Assembly: GCA_027489275.1 (NCBI GenBank)
Contig: JAIYAB010000182.1
Coordinates: 1 to 43,412, forward strand
Reading direction: 5' to 3'
DNA length: 43,412 bases
DNA from: Hyphomicrobiales bacterium
GTDB lineage: Bacteria > Pseudomonadota > Alphaproteobacteria > Rhizobiales > Beijerinckiaceae
The notes under the pieces are model-generated. The model saw only the letters and a list, made by a program, of their open reading frames with translations, was not told the DNA's origin and ran no database searches. This document shows positions 4,135 through 33,142 of the stretch, one piece after another; position 1 is the stretch's first letter; every line of letters starts with the position of its first letter. The translations under genes were made by a program, and so were the position numbers.

Positions 4135-5634
4135 TCAGGCGACGACCGCCTGCAGCTTCGCCTCGAGGTCCGGTGCGCGCCGGGCCTGCGTCTGCTGCTC
4201 GAAGGCGTGCGCGTAGCGCAGCACGGCGAGGTCGTCGTAAGGACGGCCCAGGAAGGCGATGCCGGCCGGCAGGCCGACGCTCGTATAGCCCGCAGGCACC
4301 ACGATGCTCGGCACGTTCCCGAGATAGGTGTTCAGGTGCGGGGCGCCCTTGTGGTTCACCCAGGGCGGGTTCGTCCCCTCGCTGATCAGGGTCGGCTCGT
4401 GTTCGATGGCCTTGTGGACGATCGCGTCGATCCGGTGGTCCGCCATCACCTTCAGGAGGTTGGTCATCAGCGTGTCGCGCGCCTCCAGGAAGCGGTGGTA
4501 GGCCTCCGGCGTACCCTCCCGGGCCCAGCGCTGCTTCATCTGCGGCGATACCGCCGAGTACTCTGCCGAAGCCATCGCCTCCGCCTTGCTGCGGTAGGGC
4601 GCGTCAGGCAGCTCGGAGACGTAGTACTCGAACGCCGCCAATCCGTGCTCCGGGTGATGCGCCCGCAGCGCCAGCAGCTCCTTCAGGTCCGGAATCTCGA
4701 TCTCGACGAGGACGGCGCCGGCCTCCTTCAGGGCGGCGAGCCCCGTCTCGAACACGGCGCCCACGCGCTTGAAGTCCTCGGCATCGGGATCGGCATCGAC
4801 ACCGATCGATGTCCGCAGCACGCCCAGCCTGACGCCCTGGAGACCGCCGCCCAGCGCGTCGACGAAGGATCCCGCCAGCTTGCCGACCCCATGCGCCGTC
4901 ACCGGATCGACCGGGTCGTAGCCGACCATCGCATCGAGAACCCGCGCCGCGTCCTCGACGGTCCGGGCCATGGGTCCGACGGAGCCGAGCACCGACGGCC
5001 AGCCATCGTAGACGCCGCCGCGGCTGACGAGGCCGACGCTCGGCCGCATGCCCACCACGCCGTTCCAGATCGATGGCCGGCGGATCGAGGCATATCCTTC
5101 CTGGCCCAGCGCCACCGTGCAGAAGTTCGCGGAGACGGCCGCTCCCGACCCGCCCGATGACCCGCCTGCCGTCCGGTCGATCGCGTAGACGTTACGCGTG
5201 GAGCCGAAGAGCGAGCCATGCGTGTCGCCCGCGCCCATTTCGCCGAGCGTGGTCTTGCCCAGCATCAGCGCGCCTGCCGCCCTCAGCCGCGCGATCACGA
5301 AGGAATCGCGCTTCGGCCAGTTGTCGCGGAACAGGATCGAGCCGCAGGTCGTCGGCATCTCCTTCACGTCGATCTGGTCCTTCACCAGGATCGGGACGCC
5401 ATGCAGCGGCCCCACCGGCCCGCCCTCCCGCATCCTGCGATCCAGTTCGTCGGCCTGCGCCTGGACCTGTTCGTTCACGCTGATGACGGAGTTGATGCGC
5501 GGTCCGGCGCGGTCGAGCCGCCTGATGCGATCGAGATACCAGTCGACCGCCTGTCTTGCCGTCCATTCGCCGGCCGCATAGCCGGCGATGAGATGGGCTA
5601 TCGTGATCTCGGAAAAGTCGATGTCCTTGGCCAT
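4135..5634 (-). CDS. Amidase-signature family hydrolase
   Basis: A 499-residue cytoplasmic amidase of the Ser-cisSer-Lys class, which hydrolyses carboxylic amides to acid plus ammonia or amine. The expected triad is Lys85 (ILVKDQID), Ser159 in GGSSGGSG and nucleophile Ser183 in ASIRRPSIWNG, with spacings close to those of characterised family members. The usual Gly-Gly before the nucleophile is Tyr-Ala here (EGYASIRR), a less common variant. The ATG at 5634 is preferred over an upstream in-frame ATG because AAGGAG precedes it and the protein then starts at the normal first helix. The gene is divergent from the sigma-54-led amidohydrolase and transporter operon, so it may process the same imported compound. 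The exact substrate is unknown; the GatA transamidosome role is unlikely without gatB or gatC nearby. Confidence 0.9.
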   Translation of the reverse strand: MAKDIDFSEITIAHLIAGYAAGEWTARQAVDWYLDRIRRLDRAGPRINSVISVNEQVQAQADELDRRMREGGPVGPLHGVPILVKDQIDVKEMPTTCGSILFRDNWPKRDSFVIARLRAAGALMLGKTTLGEMGAGDTHGSLFGSTRNVYAIDRTAGGSSGGSGAAVSANFCTVALGQEGYASIRRPSIWNGVVGMRPSVGLVSRGGVYDGWPSVLGSVGPMARTVEDAARVLDAMVGYDPVDPVTAHGVGKLAGSFVDALGGGLQGVRLGVLRTSIGVDADPDAEDFKRVGAVFETGLAALKEAGAVLVEIEIPDLKELLALRAHHPEHGLAAFEYYVSELPDAPYRSKAEAMASAEYSAVSPQMKQRWAREGTPEAYHRFLEARDTLMTNLLKVMADHRIDAIVHKAIEHEPTLISEGTNPPWVNHKGAPHLNTYLGNVPSIVVPAGYTSVGLPAGIAFLGRPYDDLAVLRYAHAFEQQTQARRAPDLEAKLQAVVA

Positions 5635-6075
5635 GTCGCGTTGCTCCTTGCAGACGGGCCGCGCGGCGTGCGGCCAGCATGTGGCGGGGGCGTCGGACGC
5701 CCCGGTCCCTGCCACAAAGCAATCGGCAAGCCACACCGCCCCGCCGCGCCGGCGGAGCAGAGCCCGAAGCGGCGCGCGATGACGTGGCGCGGCGTGCTCG
5801 CCGGCAATTCATCGTTCCGCTCCAGTGGCTTGAGGCCGGTCCGGCGACGCGGCGGCCGGGCCGCGTGCTGGCATGGGACCCGTTGCAGGAGGCCCGCCGC
5901 TAGACGAGCAAAGCCCTGTACCACTCCCGCGGGCCCGACACGCGCGCTGCTGCGGCAAATATCCCGCCGAGTCGTTGGGCATGAAAAGCATCACTGTGCA
6001 AATTTTGGCATAACGAAAACTTATAAAGAGGCAAAAAACGCAAGTGTTTATCTTGGCTGAAGGTCGTTTCAGCGC
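5635..6075. other. Long gap between divergent amidase and hydrolase operons
   Basis: No gene is supported here. The amidase-proximal part (about 5650-5950) is G/C-rich with no convincing coding frame; a short plus-strand frame ending at 5903 has a faint resemblance to quinoprotein dehydrogenases but is not called. From about 5985 to 6060 the sequence turns A/T-rich with runs of A, as expected of a bendable regulatory region ahead of the sigma-54 promoter at 6076. Confidence 0.6.
5995..6012. promoter_or_regulatory. Dyad about 100 bases upstream of the sigma-54 start
   Basis: TGTGC (5995-5999), eight bases, then GCATA (6008-6012): an imperfect dyad centred about 100 bases before the expected transcription start. 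Sigma-54 activators of the NtrC class bind dyads at about this distance. The match to an NtrC site is only partial, so the activator is unknown. Confidence 0.3.
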
Positions 6076-6091
6076 TGGCACGACGCTTGCT
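6076..6091 (+). promoter_or_regulatory. Sigma-54 (RpoN) promoter
   Basis: TGGCACG, four bases, TTGCT: the invariant GG (6077-6078) and GC (6089-6090) are ten bases apart and every position of the core -24/-12 consensus is matched. Transcription should start near 6102 and run through a leader of about 105 bases to the ATG at 6207. The leader holds a GGAAT/ATTCC repeat (6109-6122) and a six-base-pair hairpin (6151-6168). Sigma-54 promoters need an ATP-driven activator and in alphaproteobacteria often serve nitrogen metabolism. Confidence 0.85.
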
Positions 6092-6206
6092 ACATACCTC
6101 AACGACTGGGAATTCATATTCCAGATCGCATAGGTCACAGTATTCGTCGATCCCGGAATGAGCCGGGACCGAGGGCGATCTGCTGCATCATCTTGGGAGC
6201 TGATCC

Positions 6207-6890
6207 ATGTACGGTTGGGAGAACTACCTCAGCGAGCGTGACAAGAAGCACGACGAGCACTGGGGCAAGAAGGAGTTGTTCGGCTTCGGTCGGAAGCCGG
6301 CGCTGCTTCTCATCGACATCTACTACAGCGTGCTCGGGCTGAAGCGGGAGCCGATCTTCGAATCCATGAAGACCTGGCCGAGCAGTACCGGTCTCGAGGG
6401 CTGGGCGGCCGTCGACAAGACGGCAGAGCTTCTGGCCGTGGCGCGCGCCAACGGCATTCCCGTCGTCCACATCAAGGGCCTCGAGTCAGGCATTGCGCCG
6501 TGGGTGCACCGCAAGGGCCGCCGGGGCGAAATGTCCGAAGAGTTGCGCCTGAAGGGCAACGAGATCGTCGAGGAGGTGAAGCCCCTTCCTGGCGAAGTCG
6601 TCATCGAGAAGACCGCGCCGAGCGGATTCCAGGGCACTCCCCTGATGTTCCATCTCAACGCCCTGGGCGTCGACACGCTGATCTGCTGCGGCGAGACGAC
6701 GAGCGGCTGCGTCCGCGCCACGGTGGTCGACGGCGCCACCTCCCGGTTCCGCATGGGCGTCGTCGCCGAGTGCGTGTTCGACCGCACCGAGGCGTCGCAC
6801 TTCATGAACCTCTACGACATGCACCAGAAGTACGCCGACGTGGTCACCGTCGACATGGCGAAGGAATACCTCGCCACCAGGCTCAACTGA
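6207..6890 (+). CDS. Isochorismatase-fold cysteine amidohydrolase (N-carbamoylsarcosine or maleamate amidase type)
   Basis: A 227-residue cytoplasmic cysteine hydrolase. The triad is Asp37 (LLLIDIYY), Lys135 (VIEKTAPSGF) and Cys168 in TTSGCVRAT. The SGCVRA nucleophile motif is shared by N-carbamoylsarcosine amidohydrolase and maleamate amidohydrolase, which cleave a terminal amide and release ammonia, rather than by true isochorismatases. GGGAG lies seven bases before the start. It is the first gene after the sigma-54 promoter and heads an operon with a peptide-type ABC importer, so it probably hydrolyses the imported substrate. A paralogue at 15097-15813 closes the same gene run. The substrate is not determined by sequence alone. 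Confidence 0.88.
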   Translation: MYGWENYLSERDKKHDEHWGKKELFGFGRKPALLLIDIYYSVLGLKREPIFESMKTWPSSTGLEGWAAVDKTAELLAVARANGIPVVHIKGLESGIAPWVHRKGRRGEMSEELRLKGNEIVEEVKPLPGEVVIEKTAPSGFQGTPLMFHLNALGVDTLICCGETTSGCVRATVVDGATSRFRMGVVAECVFDRTEASHFMNLYDMHQKYADVVTVDMAKEYLATRLN

Positions 6891-6899
6891 GGCTCGACC

Positions 6900-6922
6900 C
6901 GGGGGCCGCCGCGCGGCCCCCG
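6900..6922 (+). other. Hairpin between hydrolase and binding-protein genes
   Basis: A ten-base-pair stem of almost pure G/C with a three-base loop lies nine bases after the hydrolase stop. With no T-run and an operon continuing downstream, it is more likely an mRNA-stability or partial-attenuation element than a full terminator. Confidence 0.45.
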
Positions 6923-7018
6923 CCGGACTCCGCGTTCAGAGCGCGGCGCCGGTCCCCGACGGATGAACCGGGGGACGCCGCGGCGCCGGCAGGCACCACG
7001 ATAGAGACGAGGGCAGAC

Positions 7019-8557
7019 ATGAGTTTCGCCAGGCGCCAGTTCCTCTCCCTTCTCGCCGCCTCGGTCGCGGTCGTCGGCTTCGCGGTCGCGACGCCGGCGC
7101 CCTCGCAGGCCCAGGACAAGACGCTGAAGGTCCGCTTCTACGACGATCCGGCCGGCTTCGATCCCGCCAACATCTTCCGCATCGAGAACGAGAACATCGC
7201 GTTCAATATTTTCAGCGGCCTCACCACCTACGACAGCAAGACCGGCAAGATCATCCCCGACCTTGCCGAGTCCTGGGACACCGACGACAACAAGACGTGG
7301 AAGTTCAACCTCCGCAAGGGCGTGAAGTGGCACAAGGGCTACGGCGAGTTCACCTCCGCCGACGTGGTCTACACCTTCAACCGCATCCGTGACCCGAAGA
7401 CTGCCTCTCCCTACGCCGCCGAACTGGCCAACGTCGCCAAGGTCGAGACGCCTGATCCCTACACCGTCGTGATCGAGCTGAAGTCGCCGGACGGAAACTT
7501 CCTCCACCAGGTGGCCAATTACCACCAGGGCCAGATCGTCAACCGCAAGGCGATCGAGGACGCCGGCGACAAGGTGCGCTGGAATCCTGTCGGCACGGGC
7601 CCCTATGTGCTCGACTTCATCGACGTGAACTCCCGCATCGTGCTGAAGAGCCACAAGGACTATTTCCGAGGCCCGGCGCCCATCGACACGATCACCTTCC
7701 AGATCATCAAGGACGAGAACACCTCTACCATCGCGCTGCGCAACGGCGAGATCGACCTGGTCATGCGCGCGAACCGCGAGGAGCACCTGGAGACCCTCAG
7801 GAAGGAGGGCTTCAGGATGAACAAGGTCGAGAACTATGCGGTCGCCCTGAAGGTGCTGAACCCCGCCTTCAAGCCCCTGGCGGACGTCCGCGTGCGGCAG
7901 GCCATCGCCCACGCCATCGACTACGACACCATCAACCAGGCCACCGCGCCCAGCATGCAGAAGGGCACCGCGTCCTTCATCCTGCCGTGGATGGACGTCT
8001 ACACCGACGACATCCCGAAGTACCCCTTCGATCCCGCCAAGGCGAAGAAGCTGCTCGCCGAGGCCGGCTATCCCAAGGGCTTCACGGTCAAGCACCTCAA
8101 CACGTCGGCCCAGGGCGTCACCGAACTCCAGCAGTTCGAGATCGACTACCTCTCCCAGGTCGGCATTACCATGAAGATGGAGCTGGTCGACACGCCGACC
8201 TTCAACCAGAAGCGCAACGCCGGCGACTTCGAGTTCGCCACGCGTCTGCTTCCGGCCGTCAACCCCGACACGATCCTCTTCAACTACCTGCATCCCGCCA
8301 ATGCATCGCCGAAGGGGCTCAACGGCGCGCGCTACGACAATCCGAAGCTCACCGCCCTCCTCGAGGGGGCGCGGGCGGAGGTCGACCCCAAGAAGCGCAA
8401 GGCCATGTATGCCGAGGTGCAGAAGATCGCGCTGACCGATCTCTACTACCTGCCGATGTATGCCAACCACGTCATCTGGCCGGGCAAGCAGAAGGTCGCG
8501 GGCGTCAACATCAACTACCTCGGCCAGGTCAACTTCTTCGAAGTCGACGTGAAGTAA
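7019..8557 (+). CDS. Family 5 ABC substrate-binding protein (peptide/nickel type)
   Basis: A 512-residue periplasmic binding protein of the DppA/OppA class. The amino end has twin arginines followed by a hydrophobic core (ARRQFLSLLAASVAVVGF), compatible with Tat or Sec export, with probable cleavage after SQA at about residue 31. Family features follow: GFDPANIFR, DLAESWDTDD, KFNLRKGVKWHKG, and DVRVRQAIAHAIDYD near the middle. A weak GAGG lies before the ATG at 7019. Two permeases and a fused ATPase follow directly. Such proteins bind peptides but also many other small amphipathic compounds; the flanking amidohydrolases suggest an amide or carbamoyl compound here. Confidence 0.92.
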   Translation: MSFARRQFLSLLAASVAVVGFAVATPAPSQAQDKTLKVRFYDDPAGFDPANIFRIENENIAFNIFSGLTTYDSKTGKIIPDLAESWDTDDNKTWKFNLRKGVKWHKGYGEFTSADVVYTFNRIRDPKTASPYAAELANVAKVETPDPYTVVIELKSPDGNFLHQVANYHQGQIVNRKAIEDAGDKVRWNPVGTGPYVLDFIDVNSRIVLKSHKDYFRGPAPIDTITFQIIKDENTSTIALRNGEIDLVMRANREEHLETLRKEGFRMNKVENYAVALKVLNPAFKPLADVRVRQAIAHAIDYDTINQATAPSMQKGTASFILPWMDVYTDDIPKYPFDPAKAKKLLAEAGYPKGFTVKHLNTSAQGVTELQQFEIDYLSQVGITMKMELVDTPTFNQKRNAGDFEFATRLLPAVNPDTILFNYLHPANASPKGLNGARYDNPKLTALLEGARAEVDPKKRKAMYAEVQKIALTDLYYLPMYANHVIWPGKQKVAGVNINYLGQVNFFEVDVK

Positions 8558-8573: not shown

Positions 8574-9521
8574 ATGCTCGCCTTCGTCCTCAAGAAGTTC
8601 GCGCAGCTCTTCGTCACCACCCTCGGTGTCGTCACGCTCGTGTTCTTCACGCTCCGGCTCATCCCGGGTGACGCGGCGTCGGCGATGGCCGGCGACTCGC
8701 TCTCGGGCGAGGCGCTCGAGCGGCTGCGCGAGCAGATGGGACTGACGCAGCCGCTCATGACCCAGTACGCGACCTACCTGAAGAGCCTGCTGGTGCTCGA
8801 CTTCGGTCAGACGATCACCACCGGGCTCTCCGTCTACGACCTGATGAAGAGCGCGCTCCCGATCACCCTCCTGATCGCGCTCTCCACCATCGTGATCACC
8901 GTCGTGGCGGCGATCCCGCTCGGCACGCTCGCCGCCTTCATGGCCCACAAGGGCCGCAAGGGCCTCGACAACCTCATCACCGGCACCGCGATGGTGCTGG
9001 ACCTGATGCCGTCCTTCTGGACGGGCCTCGTCTTCCTGCTGTTCTTCTCGCTGACGCTCCGGTGGTTCCCGGCGAGCGGCGACGTCGACATGTCCGATCC
9101 CTTCAGCGTCCTGCATCGCCTCGCGCTGCCGGTGCTGGTGCTGGCCGTGACGCAGATCGCCACCATGGCCCGCATCACCCGCACCGCGGTGCTGGAGGTG
9201 TTGGGGGAAGACTACATCCGCACCGCGCGCTCGCTGGGCTGGTCGGAGCTGCGGGTTCTCTTTCGCCACGCCCTGAAGAACGCCGCGCTGCCGATCGTCA
9301 CCGTCATCGGCCTGAGCTTCGGAAGTCTCCTCAATGGCACGGTCATCGTCGAGTTCATCTTCAATATTCCGGGGATCGGAAGTCTTCTCGTCAACGGAAT
9401 CAACAGCCGTGACTATCAGATGGTGCAGAATCTCATCATCTTCTACGCGCTGATATTCGTGACGATCAATTTCGCGACGGACATCATCTATCGAAAACTC
9501 GATCCCCGCGTAACGTTCTGA
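8574..9521 (+). CDS. ABC permease, DppB type
   Basis: A 315-residue inner-membrane permease with six hydrophobic segments and the family opening (FVLKKFAQLFVTTLGVVTLV, then RLIPGD). The cytoplasmic EAA-type loop that docks on the ATPase is at about residues 212-231 (EDYIRTARSLGWSELRVL). It starts 16 bases after the binding-protein stop, with GGGAG upstream. It pairs with the DppC-type permease at 9536 to form the channel. The last 65 codons use many A/T-ending codons (GGA, AGT, ATA, CGA, AAA), unlike the rest of the operon. Confidence 0.94.
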   Translation: MLAFVLKKFAQLFVTTLGVVTLVFFTLRLIPGDAASAMAGDSLSGEALERLREQMGLTQPLMTQYATYLKSLLVLDFGQTITTGLSVYDLMKSALPITLLIALSTIVITVVAAIPLGTLAAFMAHKGRKGLDNLITGTAMVLDLMPSFWTGLVFLLFFSLTLRWFPASGDVDMSDPFSVLHRLALPVLVLAVTQIATMARITRTAVLEVLGEDYIRTARSLGWSELRVLFRHALKNAALPIVTVIGLSFGSLLNGTVIVEFIFNIPGIGSLLVNGINSRDYQMVQNLIIFYALIFVTINFATDIIYRKLDPRVTF

Positions 9522-9535
9522 CGGAGCGGCAGACC

Positions 9536-10492
9536 ATGACCGACGCCATGTCCCTGGGGCGCAGCACGTCCGGAGAGGCCGACGCGCCTCTGCCGCGCCC
9601 GACGGGTGGTCCGGCAATCGCGCAAAGGTCAGCCGCGCCGGCGGCGGCGCGGTCCGTGCCGGCGTTCCGCGGCCTGCGGGCGGTGCTGGCCAACCGCAAG
9701 GCGCGGATCGCGCTGATGATCCTCGTGCCCATCCGCGTGCTCACCGCGCTGTTGCCCTGGCTTCCGCTCCAGGCGCCGCTGCAGACCAATCTCCGGGCCA
9801 TGATGAAGCCGCCGTCCTTCACCTTTCCGTTCGGCACGGACCGGATGGGCCGCGACGTGCTCAGCCGCACGCTGGAGGGGGTGAAGGTGTCGCTGTTCGT
9901 CGGCTTCAGCGTCGCCTTCATCTCGCTGGTCTTCGGCATCGTGCTCGGCACCGTCTCCGGCTTCTTCGGCAAGGTCGTCGACCGCGCCATCATGACGGTG
10001 GTCGACATCTTCCTCGCCTTCCCGTCGCTGCTGCTGGCCATCGGGCTGGTGTCGATCGTCGGAACCGGCCTCGTGCCCGTCATCATGGCGATCGCGCTGG
10101 CCGACATCCCGCGCTTCATCCGCCTGCAGCGCTCGCTCGTGCTCGGCCTGCGGTCGCGCGCCTACATCGACGCGGCCCGCACGGTCCGCGCGTCGCAGTG
10201 GTGGCTGCTCAGCCGGCACGTTGTGCCCAATACCATCGCGTCGCTGCTGGTCGCCGCCAGCATCGCCGCCGCCAACGCCATTCTGGTCGAGGCGAGCCTC
10301 AGCTTCCTCGGGCTCGGCATCATGCCGCCCGAGCCGTCGCTCGGGAACCTCATCCGCGACGGACAGACCTACCTCGAGCAGGCCTGGTGGATCTCCACGC
10401 TGCCCGGGGTGGTGATCCTCGCCATCGCCATCAGCCTTCACTTCCTGTCGGACGGCATCCGCGAGGTGCTCGACCCCCGCTCGCGCAAATGA
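9536..10492 (+). CDS. ABC permease, DppC type
   Basis: A 318-residue inner-membrane permease of the DppC/OppC class. A polar amino-terminal extension of about 45 residues, rich in Ala and Pro, precedes the first membrane segment. The family signature FPFGTDRMGRDVLSRTLEG is clear, and the EAA loop lies at about residues 207-232 (YIDAARTVRASQWWLLSRH). The carboxyl end reads SDGIREVLDPRSRK. ACGGAG precedes the start, which lies 14 bases after the DppB-type gene. In the first membrane segment the usual hydrophobic residues are interrupted by an arginine (VPIRVLTALLPW), which may only be local variation. Confidence 0.93.
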   Translation: MTDAMSLGRSTSGEADAPLPRPTGGPAIAQRSAAPAAARSVPAFRGLRAVLANRKARIALMILVPIRVLTALLPWLPLQAPLQTNLRAMMKPPSFTFPFGTDRMGRDVLSRTLEGVKVSLFVGFSVAFISLVFGIVLGTVSGFFGKVVDRAIMTVVDIFLAFPSLLLAIGLVSIVGTGLVPVIMAIALADIPRFIRLQRSLVLGLRSRAYIDAARTVRASQWWLLSRHVVPNTIASLLVAASIAAANAILVEASLSFLGLGIMPPEPSLGNLIRDGQTYLEQAWWISTLPGVVILAIAISLHFLSDGIREVLDPRSRK

Positions 10493-10529: not shown

Positions 10530-12507
<1,978 letters not shown>

Positions 12508-12518
<11 letters not shown>

Positions 12519-13731
12519 GCGCTACAGGCAGTTCGGCGTCTACGCGGGCGGCCTGTTCTTCACCATTACCGGGCTTTCCGGCCAGTTCTTCACGCTCTAC
12601 GCGCAGGAACTCGGGGCCTCGACCCTCACCATCGGCCTGCTGGTCACGCTGCGTGCCGTGCTGCCGATCTTCATCGCCATGCCGTCGGGCCAGCTCATCG
12701 ACAGCATCGGGCCGATGAAGATGCTGATCGCGGGCAATGTCTGCCTGTTCCTGTCGCTCGTCCTGAACGCGACCGCGACGGGCGTCGTCGTGCTGGCGCT
12801 GTCGCAGTTCTTCCTCGGAGCGAGCGTCATCATCATGGCTTCGTCGTTCCAGGTCCTCGTCTCGACCGGCGACAAGGCGACGCGCAACGAGGCGATCAAG
12901 AAGTACTCCATGTGGATGTCGGCGGGCGGCATGCTCGGTCCGCTCCTGGGCGGCCTCGTCGCCTCCGCCTTCCCCGGCCAGATGGACGGCTACCGCGCCG
13001 CCTTCTACGCGGCGGCCGCGTCCTGCGGCCTGCTCATGGTGGCGCTGCTGTGGTTCAGCCGCACCTACGAGCACCCCCGCATAGCCGAAGGCGACGTCCA
13101 GCTCACGGAGATCTTCAGCGTCGGCGGCTTCTTCGCGAGCTATCGCCGCGGCATCGACCTGGCCGGCAACCGCCCGGTCCAGTTCGGACTGACGGCGACG
13201 TTCCTGATCATGTACATCCAGTCGCTCTACAACAGCTTCCTGCCGCTCTACATGGACTCGGTCGGCTTCTCGACCATGATCATATCGACGGCCCTCGCCC
13301 TGAACGGCCTCTCCGGGATGCTGTCGCGCTTCGTCCTCGGCGGGCTGATGAGCCGGCTGTCGCCGGAGTACATCCTCTCGGCGGCCGGCTTCGCCGCGGC
13401 CGCTTGCGTCGCGCTGACGCCGCTGGCGGCGGCGAATGTGTGGACGATGCTGGCGCTCGTGACCGTCATGGGCGGCGCCGTCGGCGTCAACCTCCCGGTC
13501 AGCATCATGATCATGGTGGACGCCGTCGGCGAGACGGAGCGCGGAAAGCTGATGGGGCTGCGGCTTCTCGTGAACCGGTTCTCGCAGGTGCTGAGCCCAG
13601 CCATGTTCGGCGTCCTCGGCCACGCCTTCGGCCTGACGGCGGCCCTCTACGGCGGCGGCGTCTTTCTGCTGGCGACGATGTTCGGCTTCTCGGCCTATGC
13701 CAGCCGCACCAGACAGTTGCGCGGGAGCTGA
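12508..13731 (+). CDS. MFS transporter (first of two)
   Basis: A 407-residue major facilitator superfamily protein with about 12 hydrophobic segments. The loop between segments 2 and 3 reads GQLIDSIGPMKML, a form of the family G-x-x-x-D-(R/x)-x-G motif with Ser in place of the usual Arg. Its start lies inside the last codons of the ATPase gene (11-base overlap), so the two are co-translated. A second MFS gene follows after one base. Direction and substrate cannot be read from the sequence. An MFS carrier in the middle of an ABC-importer operon may export a product such as an acid left after amide hydrolysis, or import a related substrate. Confidence 0.88.
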
Positions 13732-13732
13732 G

Positions 13733-15031
13733 ATGTCGGCGGAGCCCTTCACCACCACGCCCGTGCCCGCCGCGTCGACCTGGGCGATCCTCGTGGCGCG
13801 TCCTGCGCTCGTCGTCATCATGGGCACCGTCGCCGGTCACATGATGATGATGGGCATGGTCGCCCCCGTGCTCTCGCTCTACGCGAAGAGCTTCGGCGTT
13901 GCCGAGTGGGCGGTCGGGCTCATCATCACCGCCTTCGGGGTGGGCCGGCTTCTCGTCGACCTGCCGGCGGGCCTCATGGCGGAGCGCTACGGCCGGCGCC
14001 TGTTCGTCTGGCTCGGCCCCGCCGTCGTCGGGATCGCCTCGCTGGGGGCGGCGCTGGCGACGGACTTCTGGTTGCTCGTCTTCTTCCGCTTCGTGCAGGG
14101 CCTCGGCTCGGGCATGTACATGACGGTGGCGACCGTCGTTTGCGCCGATCTCGCCGCGCCCGGCCAGCGCGCGCGGATCATGGCGCTCTACCAGACGGCC
14201 CTTCTGGTCGGGGCGGGCCTCGGGCCGGCGGTCGGCGGCGTCATGGCCGACCACTTCGGCTACCAGTCGCCCTTCTGGCTCTCGATGGCCATCGGCATGG
14301 GCGCCGCGCTGTATGCCTTCCTCTCCTTCGAGGAGACCAGGCGCCCGAGCGCGCCGGGCGTCCACCACGACCATTCCTTTCGCGCCTTCGCCCCCTTGCT
14401 GCGCAACCCGACCATCGTCGTCGCGCTGCTGATCAATCTCGGCGCGTTCATGACGCGCTCCGCCGGCCTGTGGCAGATGCTTCCCCTGTCGGCCAACGAA
14501 CGCTTCGGCTTCGACGCGGGCAGCATCGGCCTCGGCATGACCGTGATGACGCTCGCCAATCTCGCCGTGCTCCCCTTCACGGGCCGCCTTGTCGACCGCT
14601 TCGGAACGGTCCGGTGCATCGTCGCGGCCACGTTGGTGACAGTGGCGGCGCTCGTCGTGGCGGGGACGGGCCTGCAGCCGTGGACCTTCTGGGCAGCCAT
14701 GGCGACGCTCGGCGCCGCGACGGGCATGCAGGGGCCGGCCATCGCCACCTACTCCGTCGACCACGCGCCTGGCGGCCGCTTCGGCCCCGCCATGGGGCTG
14801 CTGCGCTTCGCCGGCGACGTGGGGTTCGTGCTCGGCCCGCTTGCGCTGGGCGCCGCCGTCGACCTGACGGGGATCGGCTACTCCGGCGCGATCCTGCTCA
14901 ACGCCGCCATCCTGGCGCTCTTCGGGGTGCTGTTCATGATCTGGGGCCGCCGCGCACCGGACGAAGCGCCGGCGCCGGCGAAACCGACGCCGGAGCCGGC
15001 GTCCCCGTCGGGGCCCTCGCCCGATCCGTAA
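13733..15031 (+). CDS. MFS transporter (second of two)
   Basis: A 432-residue major facilitator superfamily protein with about 12 membrane segments. The loop 2-3 motif is intact (DLPAGLMAERYGRRLFV), and the loop 8-9 copy reads GRLVDRFGTVRC. The tail is polar and Pro/Ala-rich. The ATG at 13733 begins one base after the stop of the preceding MFS gene and has GGGAG five bases upstream; an in-frame ATG 12 codons earlier is less likely. It is probably a tandem partner of the first MFS gene, but the two are only distantly alike, so they may have different substrates. Confidence 0.88.
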   Translation: MSAEPFTTTPVPAASTWAILVARPALVVIMGTVAGHMMMMGMVAPVLSLYAKSFGVAEWAVGLIITAFGVGRLLVDLPAGLMAERYGRRLFVWLGPAVVGIASLGAALATDFWLLVFFRFVQGLGSGMYMTVATVVCADLAAPGQRARIMALYQTALLVGAGLGPAVGGVMADHFGYQSPFWLSMAIGMGAALYAFLSFEETRRPSAPGVHHDHSFRAFAPLLRNPTIVVALLINLGAFMTRSAGLWQMLPLSANERFGFDAGSIGLGMTVMTLANLAVLPFTGRLVDRFGTVRCIVAATLVTVAALVVAGTGLQPWTFWAAMATLGAATGMQGPAIATYSVDHAPGGRFGPAMGLLRFAGDVGFVLGPLALGAAVDLTGIGYSGAILLNAAILALFGVLFMIWGRRAPDEAPAPAKPTPEPASPSGPSPDP

Positions 15032-15096: not shown

Positions 15097-15813
15097 ATGG
15101 CGCGCATCGACGTCTTCGAGGACCACTGCTGGAAGGATGTGATCGATAGGGACACGCTGAAGATCTACGCCGCCTATGCCCGCGAGACGTTCATCGGGCC
15201 GAACCCGGCGGTGATCGCGATCGATCTGTACAACTCCGCCTATCGGGGCGGGGCGCGCCCGCCGGCGGAGATCCAGGCCGAGTTTCCCAGTTCCTGCGGC
15301 GTCAATGCCTGGACCGCCGTCGAGCCGACGCGCAAGCTTCTCGCCGCGGCGCGGCTCGCCGGCGTTCCCGTTTTCTACTGCACCTCCGACACGCGCCCGC
15401 AGAGCAAGCCGTCGGGCGTCGGTGCCACGCGGCGTCAGCGCACGACCTCGTTCGACGACGACTACGTGATCATGCGAGAGCTCGCTCCGGAGCCGGGCGA
15501 CGTGGTGATCGCCAAGCAGCGCGCCTCTATTTTCGCCGGCACGCCGCTCGTCTCCCACCTGACGGTCCTCGGTGTCCGGAGTCTCATCGTGTGCGGCGAG
15601 AGCACGTCGGGCTGCGTCCGCGCGAGCTGCGTTGACGGCTATTCCAGCGGTTATCACGTCACGCTGGTGGAGGAGTGCACGTTCGACCGCTCTGACCTCA
15701 TCCACAAGGTCAACCTGTTCGACCTGCACCATAAATACGCGGACGTCATGGCGATCGACGAGGTGCTCGCTCATCTGGCCCGCCTCGGCGGCCATCGCGT
15801 GGCCGCCGAGTAG
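15097..15813 (+). CDS. Second isochorismatase-fold cysteine amidohydrolase
   Basis: 238 residues, with triad Asp43 (VIAIDLYN), Lys140 (VIAKQRASIF) and Cys173 in STSGCVRAS. It is a paralogue of the 6207-6890 enzyme: about half of the residues match over the last 70, including the matching ends LYDMHQKYADV and LFDLHHKYADV. GGAG lies seven bases before the ATG at 15097. It closes the transporter gene run, 65 bases after the second MFS gene. It probably hydrolyses an amide or carbamoyl bond in a substrate or intermediate related to that of the first enzyme, releasing ammonia. The motif again favours the N-carbamoylsarcosine or maleamate amidase group. Confidence 0.86.
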   Translation: MARIDVFEDHCWKDVIDRDTLKIYAAYARETFIGPNPAVIAIDLYNSAYRGGARPPAEIQAEFPSSCGVNAWTAVEPTRKLLAAARLAGVPVFYCTSDTRPQSKPSGVGATRRQRTTSFDDDYVIMRELAPEPGDVVIAKQRASIFAGTPLVSHLTVLGVRSLIVCGESTSGCVRASCVDGYSSGYHVTLVEECTFDRSDLIHKVNLFDLHHKYADVMAIDEVLAHLARLGGHRVAAE

Positions 15814-15953: not shown

Positions 15954-16910
15954 ATGGCTGGATCTCTTGAGTCCCGGGCTCTCGAAGTGTTCGTCGCGGT
16001 CAGCGACGCCGCGAGCATGACCGGCGCTGCCCGCATTTTGGGCGTCTCGCAGGCGGCCGTCTCGCAGCAGATCGCCCGGCTGGAACAGACGCTCGGGCTG
16101 CGCCTCATCGAGCGCGGCGCGCGCGAGCTGCGGCTGACGCCCGCCGGCGCGCACCTGCGCCACCTCGGCAAGCGCGTGCTCGCCGAGCTGGCCCAGGCCG
16201 AGCGCGCGATGAAGCGCTTCCAGGGCTACAGCGTGCCGCACCTGACGGTCGGGCTCATGGAGAGCATGAGCGAAATCCTGTCCACCACCATCGTCACCGC
16301 GCTGGAGATGCAGGTCCAGCACCTCGAGGTCCGCTCCTCGCTGAACTTCCGCTACCGCGACTCCCTGCTGGACGAGAGCCTCGATATCGTCGTCACGCCG
16401 GATGCCGAGGAATGGGAGGGACTCGAGGTCCACCGCCTCGCGACCGAGCCGCTGATCCTCGCCCTGCCCAAGGATCACGCCGCCTACGAGGAGATCGACC
16501 TCGACGCCCTTGCCGCCACCCTGCCGCAGGCCCGCCTCCTGACGCGCCGGCGAATCGGGCGGATGGTCGAGCAATACCTGGCGCGCGAGGCCATCGTCGT
16601 GCCCCGCGCCTTCGACTTCGACCAGACCGCGATGGTGCTTGACGCGGTGCGGCACGGGCAGGCATGGGCGCTCGTGACGCCGTTCGTTCTCGTCCATGCC
16701 GACATTCATGGCCACGAGTTCGACGTCTTCCCCCTGCGCGGCAACGTGCCGACGCGGACCATCGCCGTGGCGTCGAAGACCGGCCGCTTCGGCGACCTGC
16801 CGCGCGGGCTGGCGTCGGCCTGTCGCGAAACCATCGGCCTGACGGTCCGCGACCATCTCACGCGCATGGGCCCACGCGTCGCCAACACCGTCGTCGTGCA
16901 CCACGACTGA
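15954..16910 (+). CDS. LysR-family transcriptional regulator
   Basis: A 318-residue regulator. The amino-terminal winged helix-turn-helix is at about residues 8-67 (LEVFVAVSDAASMTGAARIL, then GVSQAAVSQQIARLEQTLG and LRLIERG), followed by a periplasmic-binding-like effector domain. It lies 140 bases after the second amidohydrolase on the same strand, so it may be the last gene of the locus or have its own promoter. LysR regulators usually control neighbouring genes in response to a pathway metabolite, so the hydrolase and transporter locus is the natural target. The ribosome binding site is weak. The substrate sensed is unknown. Confidence 0.92.
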   Translation: MAGSLESRALEVFVAVSDAASMTGAARILGVSQAAVSQQIARLEQTLGLRLIERGARELRLTPAGAHLRHLGKRVLAELAQAERAMKRFQGYSVPHLTVGLMESMSEILSTTIVTALEMQVQHLEVRSSLNFRYRDSLLDESLDIVVTPDAEEWEGLEVHRLATEPLILALPKDHAAYEEIDLDALAATLPQARLLTRRRIGRMVEQYLAREAIVVPRAFDFDQTAMVLDAVRHGQAWALVTPFVLVHADIHGHEFDVFPLRGNVPTRTIAVASKTGRFGDLPRGLASACRETIGLTVRDHLTRMGPRVANTVVVHHD

Positions 16911-18704: not shown

Positions 18705-19643
18705 ATGACGCAGGACCGAGAGGCGGGCGCCGGCGAGTCGCGAGGCCACTGCCGGCTCGTCGGCATCCCCGTGCAGGAGGGGGCCGGGCGCCGCGGCTGC
18801 GACATGGGGCCGAGCGCCTACCGGGCGGCGGAGATCGTCGAGGTCCTCGGCGAACTCGGCTGGACGGTCGAGGATCTCGGCAACCTTGGCCCGGACACGG
18901 CCCCCCTCGTCATGCACGACAATCCCGCGCTGAAGAACCTGCCGGCCATCGTGGCCTGGACGCGCTCCATCGCTTCGGCGGCTTACGGGGCGAGCGCCGA
19001 TGCCTTCCCCATCTTCATGGGCGGCGACCACAGCCTCTCCGCCGGGACGTTGAGCGGGCTTTCGCGCCGCGCGCGCGAGGTCGCACGGCCGCTCTTCGTG
19101 CTCTGGCTGGACGCCCATGCCGATTTCCACGCGCTCGACACGACGACGAGCGGCAACCTGCACGGCGTGCCGGTGGCCTATGCCGTCGGAATCCCGGGCT
19201 TCGAGGGGGTGTACCCGCAGAACGAGGAACCGCTGCCCGCCGAGCGCATCTGCATGCTCGGCACGCGCAGCGTCGATCCCGCCGAACGCGCGGCGCTGCG
19301 CAATGCCGGCGTGACCATCTGGGACATGCGCAGCATCGACGAGCGCGGCATCGTGGCGTGCGTGCGGGATTTCCTCGCCCGCGTCTCCGCCGGGAACGGG
19401 CTGCTGCATGTCAGCCTGGACGTCGACTTCCTCGATCCGGACATTGCGCCGGGCGTCGGCACGACCGTGCCCGGCGGCATCACGTTCCGCGAGGCGCACC
19501 TCGTCATGGAACTGCTACACGAGAGCCGGCTCGTCACCAGCCTCGACCTTGCCGAGCTCAATCCCTATCTCGACGACCGCGGCCGCACCGCGCGCCTCAT
19601 GGTCGATCTCGTCGCCAGCCTGATGGGCCGGCAGATCCTGTAG
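18705..19643 (+). CDS. rocF: Arginase
   Basis: A 312-residue ureohydrolase that splits arginine to ornithine and urea with a two-manganese centre. Metal-site residues are His109 (GGDHS), Asp136, His138 and Asp140 (DAHADFH), and Asp239 and Asp241 (DVDFLDP). The GNLHGVPVA segment near residue 150 and the carboxyl SLDLAELNP stretch point to arginase rather than agmatinase. GAGGG lies upstream of the ATG at 18705. It is cytoplasmic, stands alone after the ABC-F gene, and faces a convergent peptidase gene. It fits the nitrogen-scavenging flavour of the area, but there is no direct link to the sigma-54 operon. Confidence 0.92.
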   Translation: MTQDREAGAGESRGHCRLVGIPVQEGAGRRGCDMGPSAYRAAEIVEVLGELGWTVEDLGNLGPDTAPLVMHDNPALKNLPAIVAWTRSIASAAYGASADAFPIFMGGDHSLSAGTLSGLSRRAREVARPLFVLWLDAHADFHALDTTTSGNLHGVPVAYAVGIPGFEGVYPQNEEPLPAERICMLGTRSVDPAERAALRNAGVTIWDMRSIDERGIVACVRDFLARVSAGNGLLHVSLDVDFLDPDIAPGVGTTVPGGITFREAHLVMELLHESRLVTSLDLAELNPYLDDRGRTARLMVDLVASLMGRQIL

Positions 19644-19724: not shown

Positions 19725-20921
19725 TCAGTGCGCGCCCGTTGCAAGCAGGACGGCGAGTTTGCAGCCGGTCACGTACTCGTCGAGTTCGACATACTCGTTG
19801 ATCGTGTGCACCTCGCGCTGGCCCGCGCCGATCGTCACGGTCGGGATGCCGTGCTTGTCGAGCCAATTCGCGTCGAGCCCGCCCGGCGAGAAGATCAGGT
19901 TCGGCTTGATCCCGAGCGCTTCCATCGCCTTCACCGCGATGCGCGTCGCGGCGGCGTCCTCCGGGACGCGGAAGGGCGGGTAGGCCGGCACATGGCGGAA
20001 CTCGATCTTCGCCGCTTCGCCGTCGACGTTCTTCACCTGCGCCTGCGCCTTGGCGAAGGCCTCCTTGAAGCCTTCGGCGATCTTCGTCGCGAACGCCGAC
20101 TCGGGGCTGCGGGCCTCGCCGCGGACGAAGGTGTAGTCCGTCACCACATTGGTGGCGTCGCCGGACGACTTGCCGTTGCGGCCGCCGAAGATGCCGACAT
20201 TGCTGGTCCCGTAGCCGTCGGGCTTCGTCACCTTGCCGAACCACCCGGCTTTGGCGGCTTCCGCCAGCGCCGTCGCGCCGACCAGCGTGGCGGAAATGCC
20301 CTTCTCGGGGGCGAGGCCGGCGTGGGTCGCCTTGCCATGGATCTCGACCTCCCAGTTCTCCTGGCCGATCGCGCCGATGATCAGGTCCTCGGGCCGCTGC
20401 CCGTCGACGTTGAAGCACATCGCGGGGCTGCCCAGGTCCGAGGCCTTCAGTTCGCGCGCGCCGTGCAGCCCGCTCTCCTCGCGCACGGTGAAGAGCAGCG
20501 TGATGGGCGGGTGGGGCAGCTTGTTCTTGATCAGCGTCTCGGCGAGCGACACCAGGAGGCCGCACCCGGTGCGGTTGTCCCCGCCCAGCGCTGTCGTGCC
20601 GTCGGCCACGATCCGGCGGCCCTCCACGCGGGGCTTGGCGCCCGCGCACAGCGGCACGGTGTCGAGATGGGTGGCGAACATGATGCGCGGGCCCGCCACG
20701 GTGCCCGGCAGGTCCACGATCAGGTTGCCCGTCTGCGTCGGCAGCGGAATGCGCGTGTGCGCGTCGTCGTAGCGGATTGCCGAGGCGGGCACGCCCACCT
20801 TCACCAGTTCGTCGGCGACGGCGGCAGCGATCGCGGCTTCCTCGCCCGTGACGCCCTCCACCTTGAGGAAGCGCATCAGATGGGCTTCGGCCGAGGCCGC
20901 ATCCAGGGGAATCGAGGTCAT
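19725..20921 (-). CDS. M20 family metallopeptidase (PepT-like)
   Basis: A 398-residue zinc-dependent exopeptidase or deacylase of the M20 clan. The di-metal site is readable: His85 and Asp87 (FATHLDTVP), bridging Asp115 (GGDNRTGCG), catalytic Glu148 and ligand Glu149 (REESGLHG), Asp173 (NVDGQ), and a late His372 (REVHTINEYV). The order and spacing are those of tripeptidase PepT and related enzymes. The ATG at 20921 is preferred over TTG at 20927, since GGAAGG lies at good spacing. No signal peptide, so cytoplasmic. A small lipoprotein gene lies just upstream on the same strand. The substrate, whether a peptide or another N-acyl amino compound, is uncertain. Confidence 0.9.
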   Translation of the reverse strand: MTSIPLDAASAEAHLMRFLKVEGVTGEEAAIAAAVADELVKVGVPASAIRYDDAHTRIPLPTQTGNLIVDLPGTVAGPRIMFATHLDTVPLCAGAKPRVEGRRIVADGTTALGGDNRTGCGLLVSLAETLIKNKLPHPPITLLFTVREESGLHGARELKASDLGSPAMCFNVDGQRPEDLIIGAIGQENWEVEIHGKATHAGLAPEKGISATLVGATALAEAAKAGWFGKVTKPDGYGTSNVGIFGGRNGKSSGDATNVVTDYTFVRGEARSPESAFATKIAEGFKEAFAKAQAQVKNVDGEAAKIEFRHVPAYPPFRVPEDAAATRIAVKAMEALGIKPNLIFSPGGLDANWLDKHGIPTVTIGAGQREVHTINEYVELDEYVTGCKLAVLLATGAH

Positions 20922-20955
20922 GGCCAACGGATCCTTCCGGTCTCTCGTGGTGATC

Positions 20956-28839: not shown

Positions 28840-30378
28840 TCATCGCGTCGCGTCGAGGCTCCGGTCGGCGTAGTCCGCGACGCCGACCAGCCCGGCGTCG
28901 GGCCCCAGCAGCGCGCGAACGAGCGTCGGGCGGAATAGCGGATGGCGGGCGGCGAGCGCCGCGTCGAGCCGATCCAGCATGCCGTCGGCAAGGCCTACGC
29001 CGCCGCCGATCACGACGAGTTCCGGGTCGAGCAAGCGCTGCAGGTCCGCGAGCGCGTCGGCGATGTCGCGGATGGCGGCGTCGCGGCTGGAAATCGCCCA
29101 GCCTTCGCCCGCCGCGGCGGCGGCCAGCAGCGCTCGCGGATCCGGATCCTTCCCGGCCGCGCCGGCCGCCCGCGCCAGCGCGAAGCCGGACGCGCGCGCC
29201 TCGAGGCTCGGTCCCCTGTCCGATCCGATCTGCCCGACATGCCCGGCGAGCCCGCCCCGGCCCTGAAGCAGTCGACCGCCCGCGACGATGCCGCCGCCGA
29301 CGCCGCTCGAGATCGTCACGAACACGAGGTCGCGCCCCTGGCCCGCGCCGTGCGCGTACTCGCCCCACGCGGCCGCCTGCGCGTCGTTCAGGGCCAGGGA
29401 CGGGACACCGAACGCCTCCTCCAGCCTGCGGACGAGCGGGTAGCCGCCGGGCGGAATCGACAGGACCTCCGGGTTCACGGCGCTCCAGACGCCGTCCTTC
29501 ACCAGCCCCGACACGCCCGCGCCGCAGAGCGCGAAGCGTCCCTGCCACGGTTCGGCCAGCCGCGCCGCGGCGTCGAGCCAGCCCGCCGGGCCGTCCGCTC
29601 GCGGCGTCGCGACCTCCAGGCGTTCAACGACCCGGCCCGCCTCGACGAGCGCCGCCGCCGTCTTCGTCCCCCCGATGTCGAGCGCGAGCACCGGCCTGGG
29701 CTGCGCCGCGGCGATCGCGTCGCTGAACCAGCGGGCGATGTATTCCGGCCGGGTGATCGCCGACCCCACCACCACCGCATGCGCGCCCGCCCGCCTCGCG
29801 GCGGCGGCGAGGGGAGGGGCGTTGTAGCGCCCCTCGGCGACGACCGGCCGGCCGAGTGCGACGCAGGCGCGAACGAGCGCCAGGTCGGGCGCATCCGGTG
29901 TCGGCCCGGGGCCGACATAACCCGAGAGCGTCGTGGCGATCACGTCGGCGCCGGCCGCCACGGCGTCCCGCGCCTCGGCCGCGGTCGCGATGTCGGCCAT
30001 CGCCAGCGCTCCGGCGCCGTGGATCGCGGCGACCAGCGCCGGGACCGCGGCGGGCCTGTGCCGGTCGGTGGCGTCGAAGGCGACGATGGCCGCGCCGGCC
30101 CGCGCCAGCGCCACCGCGTCCTCCACAAAAGGCGTGATCCGGACGCCCGTGTCCGCCAGATCCCGCTTCACGAGGCCGATCACCGGCAGGGCGCAGGCCT
30201 GCGTGACCGCGCGGACGTTTGCGACGCCCTCGATCCGCAACGCCCTTGCCCCGCCGTCTCGGGCGGCCAACGCGAAGCCGACGATGAAATCCGTCGTGTC
30301 CGTCGGCCCCCCCGGCACCGGCTGGCAGGACGCGACGAGCGCGCCCTGCAGGCGCTCGAGGAACGCCTTACCGTCCAT
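28840..30378 (-). CDS. nanEK: Fused NanE-NanK: ManNAc-6-phosphate 2-epimerase and ManNAc kinase
   Basis: A 512-residue bifunctional enzyme of amino-sugar (sialic acid) breakdown. Residues 1-225 are a full NanE TIM barrel, with Lys71 in GLVKRDL, Glu182 in VAEGRYN, and the segments DTGVRITPFVEDA, ATTLSGY and GSAITRPEYI. Residues 229-512 are a ROK-family kinase with phosphate loop DIGGTKT (234-240) and catalytic Asp332 in LNDAQ. The ROK zinc motif CXCGXXGCXE is missing: after GHVGQ (380-383) the chain runs straight into SDRGPSLEARASG. Zinc-free NanK enzymes are known in the family. Start at 30378, overlapping the upstream oxidoreductase gene by 11 bases. The fusion would phosphorylate ManNAc and epimerise it to GlcNAc-6-phosphate. 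Confidence 0.9.
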   Translation of the reverse strand: MDGKAFLERLQGALVASCQPVPGGPTDTTDFIVGFALAARDGGARALRIEGVANVRAVTQACALPVIGLVKRDLADTGVRITPFVEDAVALARAGAAIVAFDATDRHRPAAVPALVAAIHGAGALAMADIATAAEARDAVAAGADVIATTLSGYVGPGPTPDAPDLALVRACVALGRPVVAEGRYNAPPLAAAARRAGAHAVVVGSAITRPEYIARWFSDAIAAAQPRPVLALDIGGTKTAAALVEAGRVVERLEVATPRADGPAGWLDAAARLAEPWQGRFALCGAGVSGLVKDGVWSAVNPEVLSIPPGGYPLVRRLEEAFGVPSLALNDAQAAAWGEYAHGAGQGRDLVFVTISSGVGGGIVAGGRLLQGRGGLAGHVGQIGSDRGPSLEARASGFALARAAGAAGKDPDPRALLAAAAAGEGWAISSRDAAIRDIADALADLQRLLDPELVVIGGGVGLADGMLDRLDAALAARHPLFRPTLVRALLGPDAGLVGVADYADRSLDATR

Positions 30379-31378
30379 GGTCGACCGTCGCTTCCCGGCC
30401 GGTCCCGGCCGACTCCAGCGCGGCGACGATGCACGCGATCGTGTGCCGCGCCGAAACGGCATCGACCGGGCTCGGTCCCCCGCCGCGGATCAGGGCTGCG
30501 AACCTTCGCCACTCCTCGACGAGCGCCTCGCCCATGACGTCGGCCGGCAGGTCCAGCGCCACGTCGCGCCATGTCCCGCCCTGCCCGATCCGCAACCCGC
30601 CGCCCGGATCGATCTGCAGCACGCCATGGTCGCAGACGAGTTCCGTCCCGCCATAGGGCGCACCGTCGTGATAGGCGATGCTCGTGACCGTCGCCGCCGC
30701 ACCGTCGGCGAAACGCAGCAGCAGCAGGGCCGAATCGTCGGACTCCTGGTCGTGGAAGGCCGCAGACGCCACGGCGTAGACGCTGCGCGCCGGTTGGCCG
30801 ACGAGCCACAGCAGGCGGTCCAGCGCATGTATACCGGCCGTCATCAGCATCCCGCCGCCTGTGTCGCGCCGCAGGTGCCACGGCCGACGGTTGGGCTCCA
30901 TCCACAGCTTCACCATCGTCGATGAGCCGAACCGCACGCGCCCCAGCGCGCCCGTGTCGAGCAGCGCCTTTGCGGCGACGATGGACGGGGCGAAGCGTTG
31001 CGTATGCCCGACCATGAACGGCACGCCCGCCTCCTCCACCGCGCGCGCGATCGCGTCGCAGTCCGCCAGCGTCGGCGCCATCGGCTTCTCGAGCAGGACC
31101 GCCTTGCCCCGGGCGGCGGCGCGGATCGTCAGCGCGGCGTGCGTCTCGTGCGGCGTGGCGATCACCACCGCCTCCACCGCCGAATCCGCCAGCAGGGCGT
31201 CCACGTCGGTGTAGCCGATGCCGCCGTGCTCGGCCGTGAAGGCGTCGAGCCCCGCCGGGCTTTCGCGGCAGGCCCCCACGAGGCGGAACCCGGCCTGCTT
31301 CAGCGCAGCGGCGTGCCGCTCGCCGAACCAGCCGGCGCCGATGATGCCGACACCGATGGCGTCGCCCTGTGATGTCAT
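30368..31378 (-). CDS. Gfo/Idh/MocA oxidoreductase (second in the NanEK operon)
   Basis: A 336-residue NAD(P)-dependent oxidoreductase with Rossmann motif GVGIIGAGWFGERHA at residues 9-23, EKP at 97-99 (LLEKPM) and the substrate-domain motif DTGGGMLMTAGIHALDRL, including the expected His. It overlaps the upstream oxidoreductase by four bases (ATGA) and the downstream NanE-NanK gene by 11, so all three are translated together. In sialic-acid loci, Gfo/Idh enzymes can interconvert anhydro or keto forms of the sugar before the aldolase step. That role is an inference from the neighbours. Confidence 0.9.
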   Translation of the reverse strand: MTSQGDAIGVGIIGAGWFGERHAAALKQAGFRLVGACRESPAGLDAFTAEHGGIGYTDVDALLADSAVEAVVIATPHETHAALTIRAAARGKAVLLEKPMAPTLADCDAIARAVEEAGVPFMVGHTQRFAPSIVAAKALLDTGALGRVRFGSSTMVKLWMEPNRRPWHLRRDTGGGMLMTAGIHALDRLLWLVGQPARSVYAVASAAFHDQESDDSALLLLRFADGAAATVTSIAYHDGAPYGGTELVCDHGVLQIDPGGGLRIGQGGTWRDVALDLPADVMGEALVEEWRRFAALIRGGGPSPVDAVSARHTIACIVAALESAGTGREATVDHGR

Positions 31379-33128: not shown

Positions 33129-33142
33129 TGGGGAGGATCACC

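Follow-up and report, generated by a model that had tools for sequence, protein, structure and literature searches.

The window, which is the whole stretch of 43,412 nucleotides analyzed here, contains two genes for isochorismatase-fold hydrolases, ich1 and ich2, that enclose genes for a family 5 solute-binding protein, two ABC permeases, a fused double ABC ATPase and two transporters of the MFS type. An amidase gene is divergent to ich1, and the 572-base gap between the two genes (amidase ATG at 5634) holds a perfect match to the sigma-54 promoter core. The features of the locus, in the order of their coordinates, are the following.

4135–5634, minus strand: divergent amidase (PF01425, 290.6 bits)
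5718–5733, minus strand: probable second sigma-54 core, for the amidase, TGGCTTGCCGATTGCT, 10 of 12 positions, the GG and GC included (P 0.014 per 200 bases)
6009–6025, plus strand: possible decayed LysR-type operator, CATAACGAAAACTTATA, 10 of 12 positions of CATWAG-N5-CTWATG (p 0.0275, a partly circular value)
6076–6091, plus strand: sigma-54 core, made up of the -24 element TGGCACG (6076–6082), the spacer ACGC (6083–6086) and the -12 element TTGCT (6087–6091)
6101–6103, plus strand: predicted transcript start, placed about 12 bases past the GC of the -12 element by the usual spacing
6207–6890, plus strand: ich1, isochorismatase-fold cysteine hydrolase and first gene of the operon (PF00857, 92.2 bits, cut-off 27)
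6900–6922, plus strand: perfect G+C hairpin of 10 bp with no T run, between ich1 and the binding-protein gene
7019–8557, plus strand: family 5 solute-binding protein (PF00496)
8574–9521, plus strand: ABC permease (PF00528)
9536–10492, plus strand: ABC permease (PF00528)
10530–12518, plus strand: fused double ABC ATPase (two PF00005 stretches)
12508–13731, plus strand: MFS transporter 1 (PF07690)
13697–15031, plus strand: MFS transporter 2 (PF07690)
15097–15813, plus strand: ich2, second isochorismatase-fold hydrolase (PF00857, 99.1 bits)

Gene families in and around the operon

Residues D37, K135 and C168 of ich1 are invariant in 21 of 21 aligned sequences and presumably form the Asp-Lys-Cys triad of isochorismatase-fold cysteine hydrolases; the protein would, we assume, be filed in COG1335. 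It scores below the NCBIfam cut-offs for biuret hydrolase (BiuH; 47.1 of 370 bits) and RutB (38.5 of 377.95 bits), as does ich2. The best match among solved structures is 3ot4/3uao, listed as a putative isochorismatase, which we take to be maleamate amidohydrolase. The order of ich1, binding protein, permeases, ATPase and MFS transporter is shared from Alphaproteobacteria to Paenibacillus where contigs are long enough, and in the orthologous locus L067 no MFS match was found. An earlier note had described the locus as an operon for an amide hydrolase and an ABC importer behind a promoter; an amide is the presumed substrate.

Several other genes were observed along the way. Tandem isochorismatase-type gene pairs recur in relatives (G001:C10, G336:C1 and others), with each member about 40–45% identical to ich1, and such pairs perhaps form hetero-oligomers. 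An arginase-family gene (18705–19643) and an M20-type peptidase gene (19725–20927) lie near the operon on its downstream side. Elsewhere in the window a NanE-ROK fusion (28840–30462), a family 5 binding protein (33128–34732) and a DHDPS-family gene (36662–37585) are found, a group that looks like a sialic-acid-type catabolic region.

The sigma-54 core and its conservation

In a pattern scan of the window, TGGCACG-N4-TTGCT matches at 12 of 12 positions at 6076–6091, with GG at -24 and GC at -12 at the fixed spacing, so that the complete match described earlier was correct; the distance to the first gene, given then as about 116 bases, is 115 bases from the end of the core when counted to the ich1 ATG at 6207, which places the core at -131. 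The extended sigma-54 consensus YTGGCACGN4TTGCWNNW also fits the window with 0 mismatches (6075–6094), a form that 8 of 100 shuffles match when up to one mismatch is allowed. No sigma-70-type promoter match was found in 5500–7100 (0.3 expected). A 22-base imperfect palindrome, GTCGTTTCAGCGCTGGCACGAC, at 6063–6084 overlaps the -24 element and is a possible operator, and the leader contains an inverted repeat, TCGATCCCGG/CCGGGACCGA, at 6147–6172. Folding of the leader RNA had no significance over six leaders (z -2.2 to 1.4), and the leaders had no Rfam match.

The window holds a single perfect core, which none of 100 shuffles contains, and the draft genome of 4,365,437 bases likewise holds one (0 in the backwards control). 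Allowing up to two mismatches gives 7 matches in the window, where 6.03 are expected, and allowing up to one gives 20 sites in the genome and 50 in the backwards control; in eight other genomes taken together, perfect sites number 7 and control sites 4. An argument from rarity alone was dropped as undecided both ways, the counts at one and two mismatches being not above controls. Rarity by itself is not decisive, and it is place and conservation that raise the core above chance. Of the 19 one-mismatch sites in the genome, three stand ahead of a P-II gene, flgF and flgI, and a crude test puts nine within a predicted long frame; a perfect core is located before nifH in genome G012; P-II genes, flgF, flgI and nifH are classic sigma-54 targets. 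Sigma-54 itself is encoded by the host genome (G000:C446, PF04552, E 7.7e-70), and rpoN was found there and in 39 of 40 genomes searched. The host draft is 83.94% complete and belongs to the same genus as an Alsobacter MAG.

Orthologous loci were taken from a search of 398 genomes and, for 29 loci, from 84,980 species genomes. The 26 close loci have at least 69% identity to ich1, the window and L042 (G251:C216) included; four distant loci were also scanned, and L077 (a partial match, 29%) was left out. The earlier note had proposed a search for the same motif ahead of orthologous operons, and this search found the core in 6 of the 26 close loci, all in one clade. All 12 positions match in the window (-131), L049 (Alsobacter MAG, -128), L067 (Beijerinckiaceae MAG, -109) and L075 (Rhizobiales MAG, -118), and 11 match in L051 (MAG labelled Rhodospirillaceae, -135) and L042 (-57). 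The remaining 20 close loci and the four distant ones have at most 9 of 12 within 500 bases upstream. In a tree of five concatenated operon proteins with 26 taxa, the six core loci and L071 form a single clade (support 0.996), so that a core of at least 11 of 12 is present in 6 of 7 clade loci (four with 12, two with 11), and of the 19 close loci that fall outside the clade none has as many as 10 of 12. By chance, 0.0008–0.0033 cores of at least 11 of 12 are expected per 200 bases. Over 15 pairs compared with shuffled DNA, the 60 bases upstream of the core align with z of -1.6 to 1.7 and the 41 bases downstream with z of -0.9 to 3.1 (two values at least 2.0). Because the core is kept while the adjoining DNA no longer aligns, selection on the promoter is indicated, with the clade loci, being of shared ancestry, not independent trials. 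Considered on its own, 6076–6091 is very probably a sigma-54 promoter.

Among the 26 distant hydrolase loci L014–L039 (38–46% identity), none has a core of 11 of 12 in upstream stretches of at most 1500 bases (31 bases for L027), and one has 10 of 12 (L025, at -550). The best core is 8 of 12 in both G196 (56%) and G251:C11 (54%). Two genomes of the same genus, G002 and G003, lack any ich1 match at 1e-40, so the genus can do without the operon.

The clade member without the sigma-54 core, L071 (G251:C76), and L042 are two operon copies within one genome. The L042 core reads TGGC-ACGAAGCTT-GCC (1298–1313), and the inside of this paralogous core, the 9-bp unit ACGAAGCTT, is present 5.9 times in tandem in L071 at 7387–7439, ending 34 bases ahead of the start codon. 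Expansion of the inner nine bases of the core may have destroyed the L071 promoter, unless there is an assembly error at this place.

A weaker sigma-54 core at 5718–5733, a site that was found after looking, probably serves the divergent amidase. A close amidase, 72–82% identical to that of the window, is divergent to ich1 in L049 and L051, where core-like sites of 10 and 9 of 12, respectively, have GG and GC in place (chance about 0.01 each). Among seven amidase homologues at 56–61% identity, three have at least 9 of 12 with GG and GC, namely L144 (from G251; 10 of 12 at -84, P 0.013), L145 and L146 (both 9 of 12, P 0.067 and 0.105), and four (L143, L147, L148, L149) have 8 of 12 or less.

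LysR genes and a palindrome in orthologous operons

In eight alphaproteobacterial loci outside the clade (Devosia, Pelagibacterium, Neorhizobium; L050, L056, L058 and L061–L065), all of them without the sigma-54 core, a LysR gene is divergent to ich1. The palindrome CATWAG-N5-CTWATG is present at 10 or more of 12 positions in 8 of 8 of these loci, a count that is circular because the pattern was refined with them in view; its first form came from the sequences of the window, L049, L067 and L042 and is circular for those four. The plasmid loci L150 and L151, which were outside the training of the pattern, both match at 12 of 12, and L150 (Neorhizobium plasmid) has an annotated divergent LysR gene, L151 being unannotated. 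In the Rhodobacteraceae, a GntR-type gene takes the place of the LysR gene in L066 (by Pfam) and L069 (by look), and in other loci outside the clade no regulator gene was recognized.

An operator-like copy is also found in L049 (11 of 12; 0 of 400 by chance, a value not fully independent of the pattern), and 6009–6025 is suggestive of a decayed copy of the LysR operator that remains in the window. The best matches are 9 of 12 in L067, L042 and L075 and 7 of 12 in L051 and L071, none of which is significant, and 8 and 9 in two Paenibacillus loci. A relative of the LysR protein of the orthologous operons was found neither in G000 (the host) or G001 above 36% identity nor in G251 at 1e-30. The simplest history would be that the clade lost its LysR regulator and took up sigma-54. 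The window does contain a LysR gene (15954–16910), which follows ich2; its product shows no more than a distant likeness to the LysR proteins of the orthologous operons, and a 67% relative of it in G001 sits elsewhere (L047, 4468–5415), in a stretch with a tandem pair of other isochorismatase-type genes. In view of these findings it was not adopted as the regulator of the operon.

Activation, alternatives and significance

A genome search found four activator-domain proteins, NtrC, FlbD, NtrX and one without an equivalog-level name (the response regulator L080). The GAFTGA loop is present in NtrC, FlbD and L080 and lacking in NtrX. Its presence in the host NtrC matters because the NtrC proteins of Rhodobacter capsulatus and Caulobacter are both without it, the latter acting at sigma-70 promoters (PMC10274813). 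Tblastn with the four activators found no activator gene near the operon in the window or in L040–L077, with the exception of the distant Deltaproteobacterial L076, and in L049 gave receiver-domain stretches only.

A 17-base NtrC-like matrix was built from 24 sites in 25 P-II promoters of the same order; of 30 P-II loci, four without a start by pattern and one with a best core of 8 of 12 were dropped, p-values for the P-II promoters are circular, and the link of the matrix to NtrC is presumed. The strict form TGCAC-N7-GTGCA is perfect in 3 of 25 P-II promoters and in 0 of 6 operon loci. Applied to the upstream DNA of the window, the matrix gives no NtrC-like site (5.1 bits, p 0.24 and 0.55), and none was found upstream of the core in L075, L042 and L051. 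L067 has a good site (17.0 bits, 68 bases ahead of the core), the site of L049 is weak (9.4 bits), and that of L051 (15.6 bits) lies downstream of the core. The eight LysR-type loci score 12.8–23.6 bits (p 0 to 0.057), and palindromes such as TGCCTAACAATTAGGCA, 42–132 bases ahead of ich1, resemble the NtrC-like sites of P-II promoters there and, by eye, in L150 and L151. The matrix also scores in L060 (p 0.01) and L070 (p 0.023), which have neither LysR gene nor core, and in L054 of Paenibacillus (p 0.013); its specificity is limited, since 11 of the 26 scanned loci have p of 0.03 or below.

Of the earlier reading, the sigma-54 promoter of the operon stood, with conservation and rpoN in the genome behind it. 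The further step, nitrogen starvation as the signal and ammonia release as the purpose, is no more than plausible, given the lack of an activator at the locus and of an NtrC-like site in the window, although an NtrC with GAFTGA is encoded. Sigma-54 alone does not imply nitrogen, because flgF and flgI of this genome, too, have near-perfect cores ahead of them. NtrC control of the operon is nevertheless plausible as the most likely reading.

The explanation that we prefer, with moderate confidence for the chain as a whole, is that 6076–6091 is a working, NtrC-activated sigma-54 promoter of an operon for scavenging amides under nitrogen limitation. The sigma-54 RNA polymerase would wait at the -24/-12 core until an ATP-using activator, most likely NtrC, opens the DNA, presumably in response to nitrogen limitation, and the operon from 6207 to about 15813 would be read from 6076–6091 as one transcript, with the divergent amidase served by its own weaker sigma-54 promoter. 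The importer would bring an organic amide into the cell, and the cysteine hydrolases and the amidase would cut the C-N bonds of the imported compound. Computation shows the core with its conservation, the presence of rpoN and ntrC in the genome, and the families and order of the genes; we infer that the promoter is active, that the operon forms one transcript, that NtrC activates it, that nitrogen is the signal and that the substrate is an amide.

A real promoter that answers to another activator, either the GAFTGA-containing L080 or one absent from the draft, and to the substrate or another stress as signal, is possible though rather unlikely. The lack of an NtrC-like site in the window, the missing equivalog-level name of L080 and a genome of 83.94% completeness, from which further activators may be missing, speak for it, but no activator gene lies beside the operon in the window or L040–L077 (the distant L076 apart), nitrogen control fits an amide-hydrolase operon, and L067 does have an NtrC-like site. 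Less probable still is mixed control, in which sigma-54 serves expression and a LysR-type protein, with its gene elsewhere or at 15954–16910, adds a second signal at the old operator. The operator-like sequences of L049 (11 of 12) and the window (10 of 12) and the LysR gene behind ich2 would agree with this, whereas the operator has no significance in L067, L042 and L075 and is missing from L051, and the LysR of the window is distant from that of the orthologous operons, with its 67% relative in G001 located elsewhere. That the 12-base match arose by chance, with the operon transcribed from a different promoter such as one controlled by a LysR protein at 6009–6025, is very improbable. Near-matches are genome-wide no commoner than in controls, LysR control occurs in eight alphaproteobacterial orthologous loci, and the operator-like sequence of the window matches at 10 of 12; against this, the core is kept in 6 of 7 clade loci between flanks that cannot be aligned, the genome is without a relative of the orthologous-operon LysR above 36% identity, and there is no sigma-70-type match nearby.

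The NtrC-activated sigma-54 promoter that we prefer can be compared with known systems. The P-II promoters of the same order, regulated by NtrC and sigma-54, have the same core, and 24 of 25 fit the matrix that they trained (a circular result); however, most of them have TTGA or TTGT at -12, whereas the window has TTGC and no site that scores with the P-II matrix. In atzR-atzDEF of Pseudomonas ADP, which combines NtrC/sigma-54 with a LysR regulator in the control of an amide-hydrolase operon, the sigma-54 promoter reportedly works without upstream sites. There sigma-54 drives the LysR gene, while in the window its promoter stands ahead of an operon that lacks the LysR gene found with its orthologues. 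In alphaproteobacteria, COG1335 amidases are significantly enriched for predicted sigma-54 control (PMC12316311), a likeness to ich1 in the class of bacteria, in the related amidases and in the nitrogen argument; the statement is a statistical one on the whole COG, and the main text of that paper does not use the word isochorismatase. In Bradyrhizobium sp. DOA9, the isochorismatase gene BRADOA9_v1_41390 has the site TGGCACGGCGCTTGC at -37 and is lowered in the rpoN mutant, as are peptide/nickel-type binding proteins and flgF with similar sites in the same RpoN regulon (PMC13207237); this genus differs from that of the window, and the likeness to ich1 is one of family and promoter site. For this operon and its two types of promoter, a literature search, with most subscription journals outside it, gave no paper. 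That isochorismatase-type amidases of alphaproteobacteria can be under sigma-54 control is already published, and the possible exchange of regulators between lineages is the part that a specialist might follow.

For this exchange we offer a tentative scenario, to which we give somewhat less than even weight. The operon may have switched its transcription machinery between lineages, being controlled by a divergent LysR protein through CATWAG-N5-CTWATG in Devosia, Pelagibacterium and Rhizobiaceae, while in the Alsobacter/Beijerinckiaceae clade the LysR gene would be gone, the operator decaying, sigma-54 in charge, the promoter of the divergent amidase recruited as a partner, and nitrogen control kept. 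That nitrogen control was kept through the change of sigma factor is suggested because NtrC-like sites lie near the gene in the LysR lineages. An unannotated importer and hydrolase operon gains a testable switch, and its likely physiology is narrowed to compounds scavenged at nitrogen shortage. If the regulator exchange is read rightly, the operon would be a clean natural case in which the genes remained intact while promoter type and regulator were exchanged and the old operator is still visible, and it would be useful for asking how bacterial promoters get replaced.
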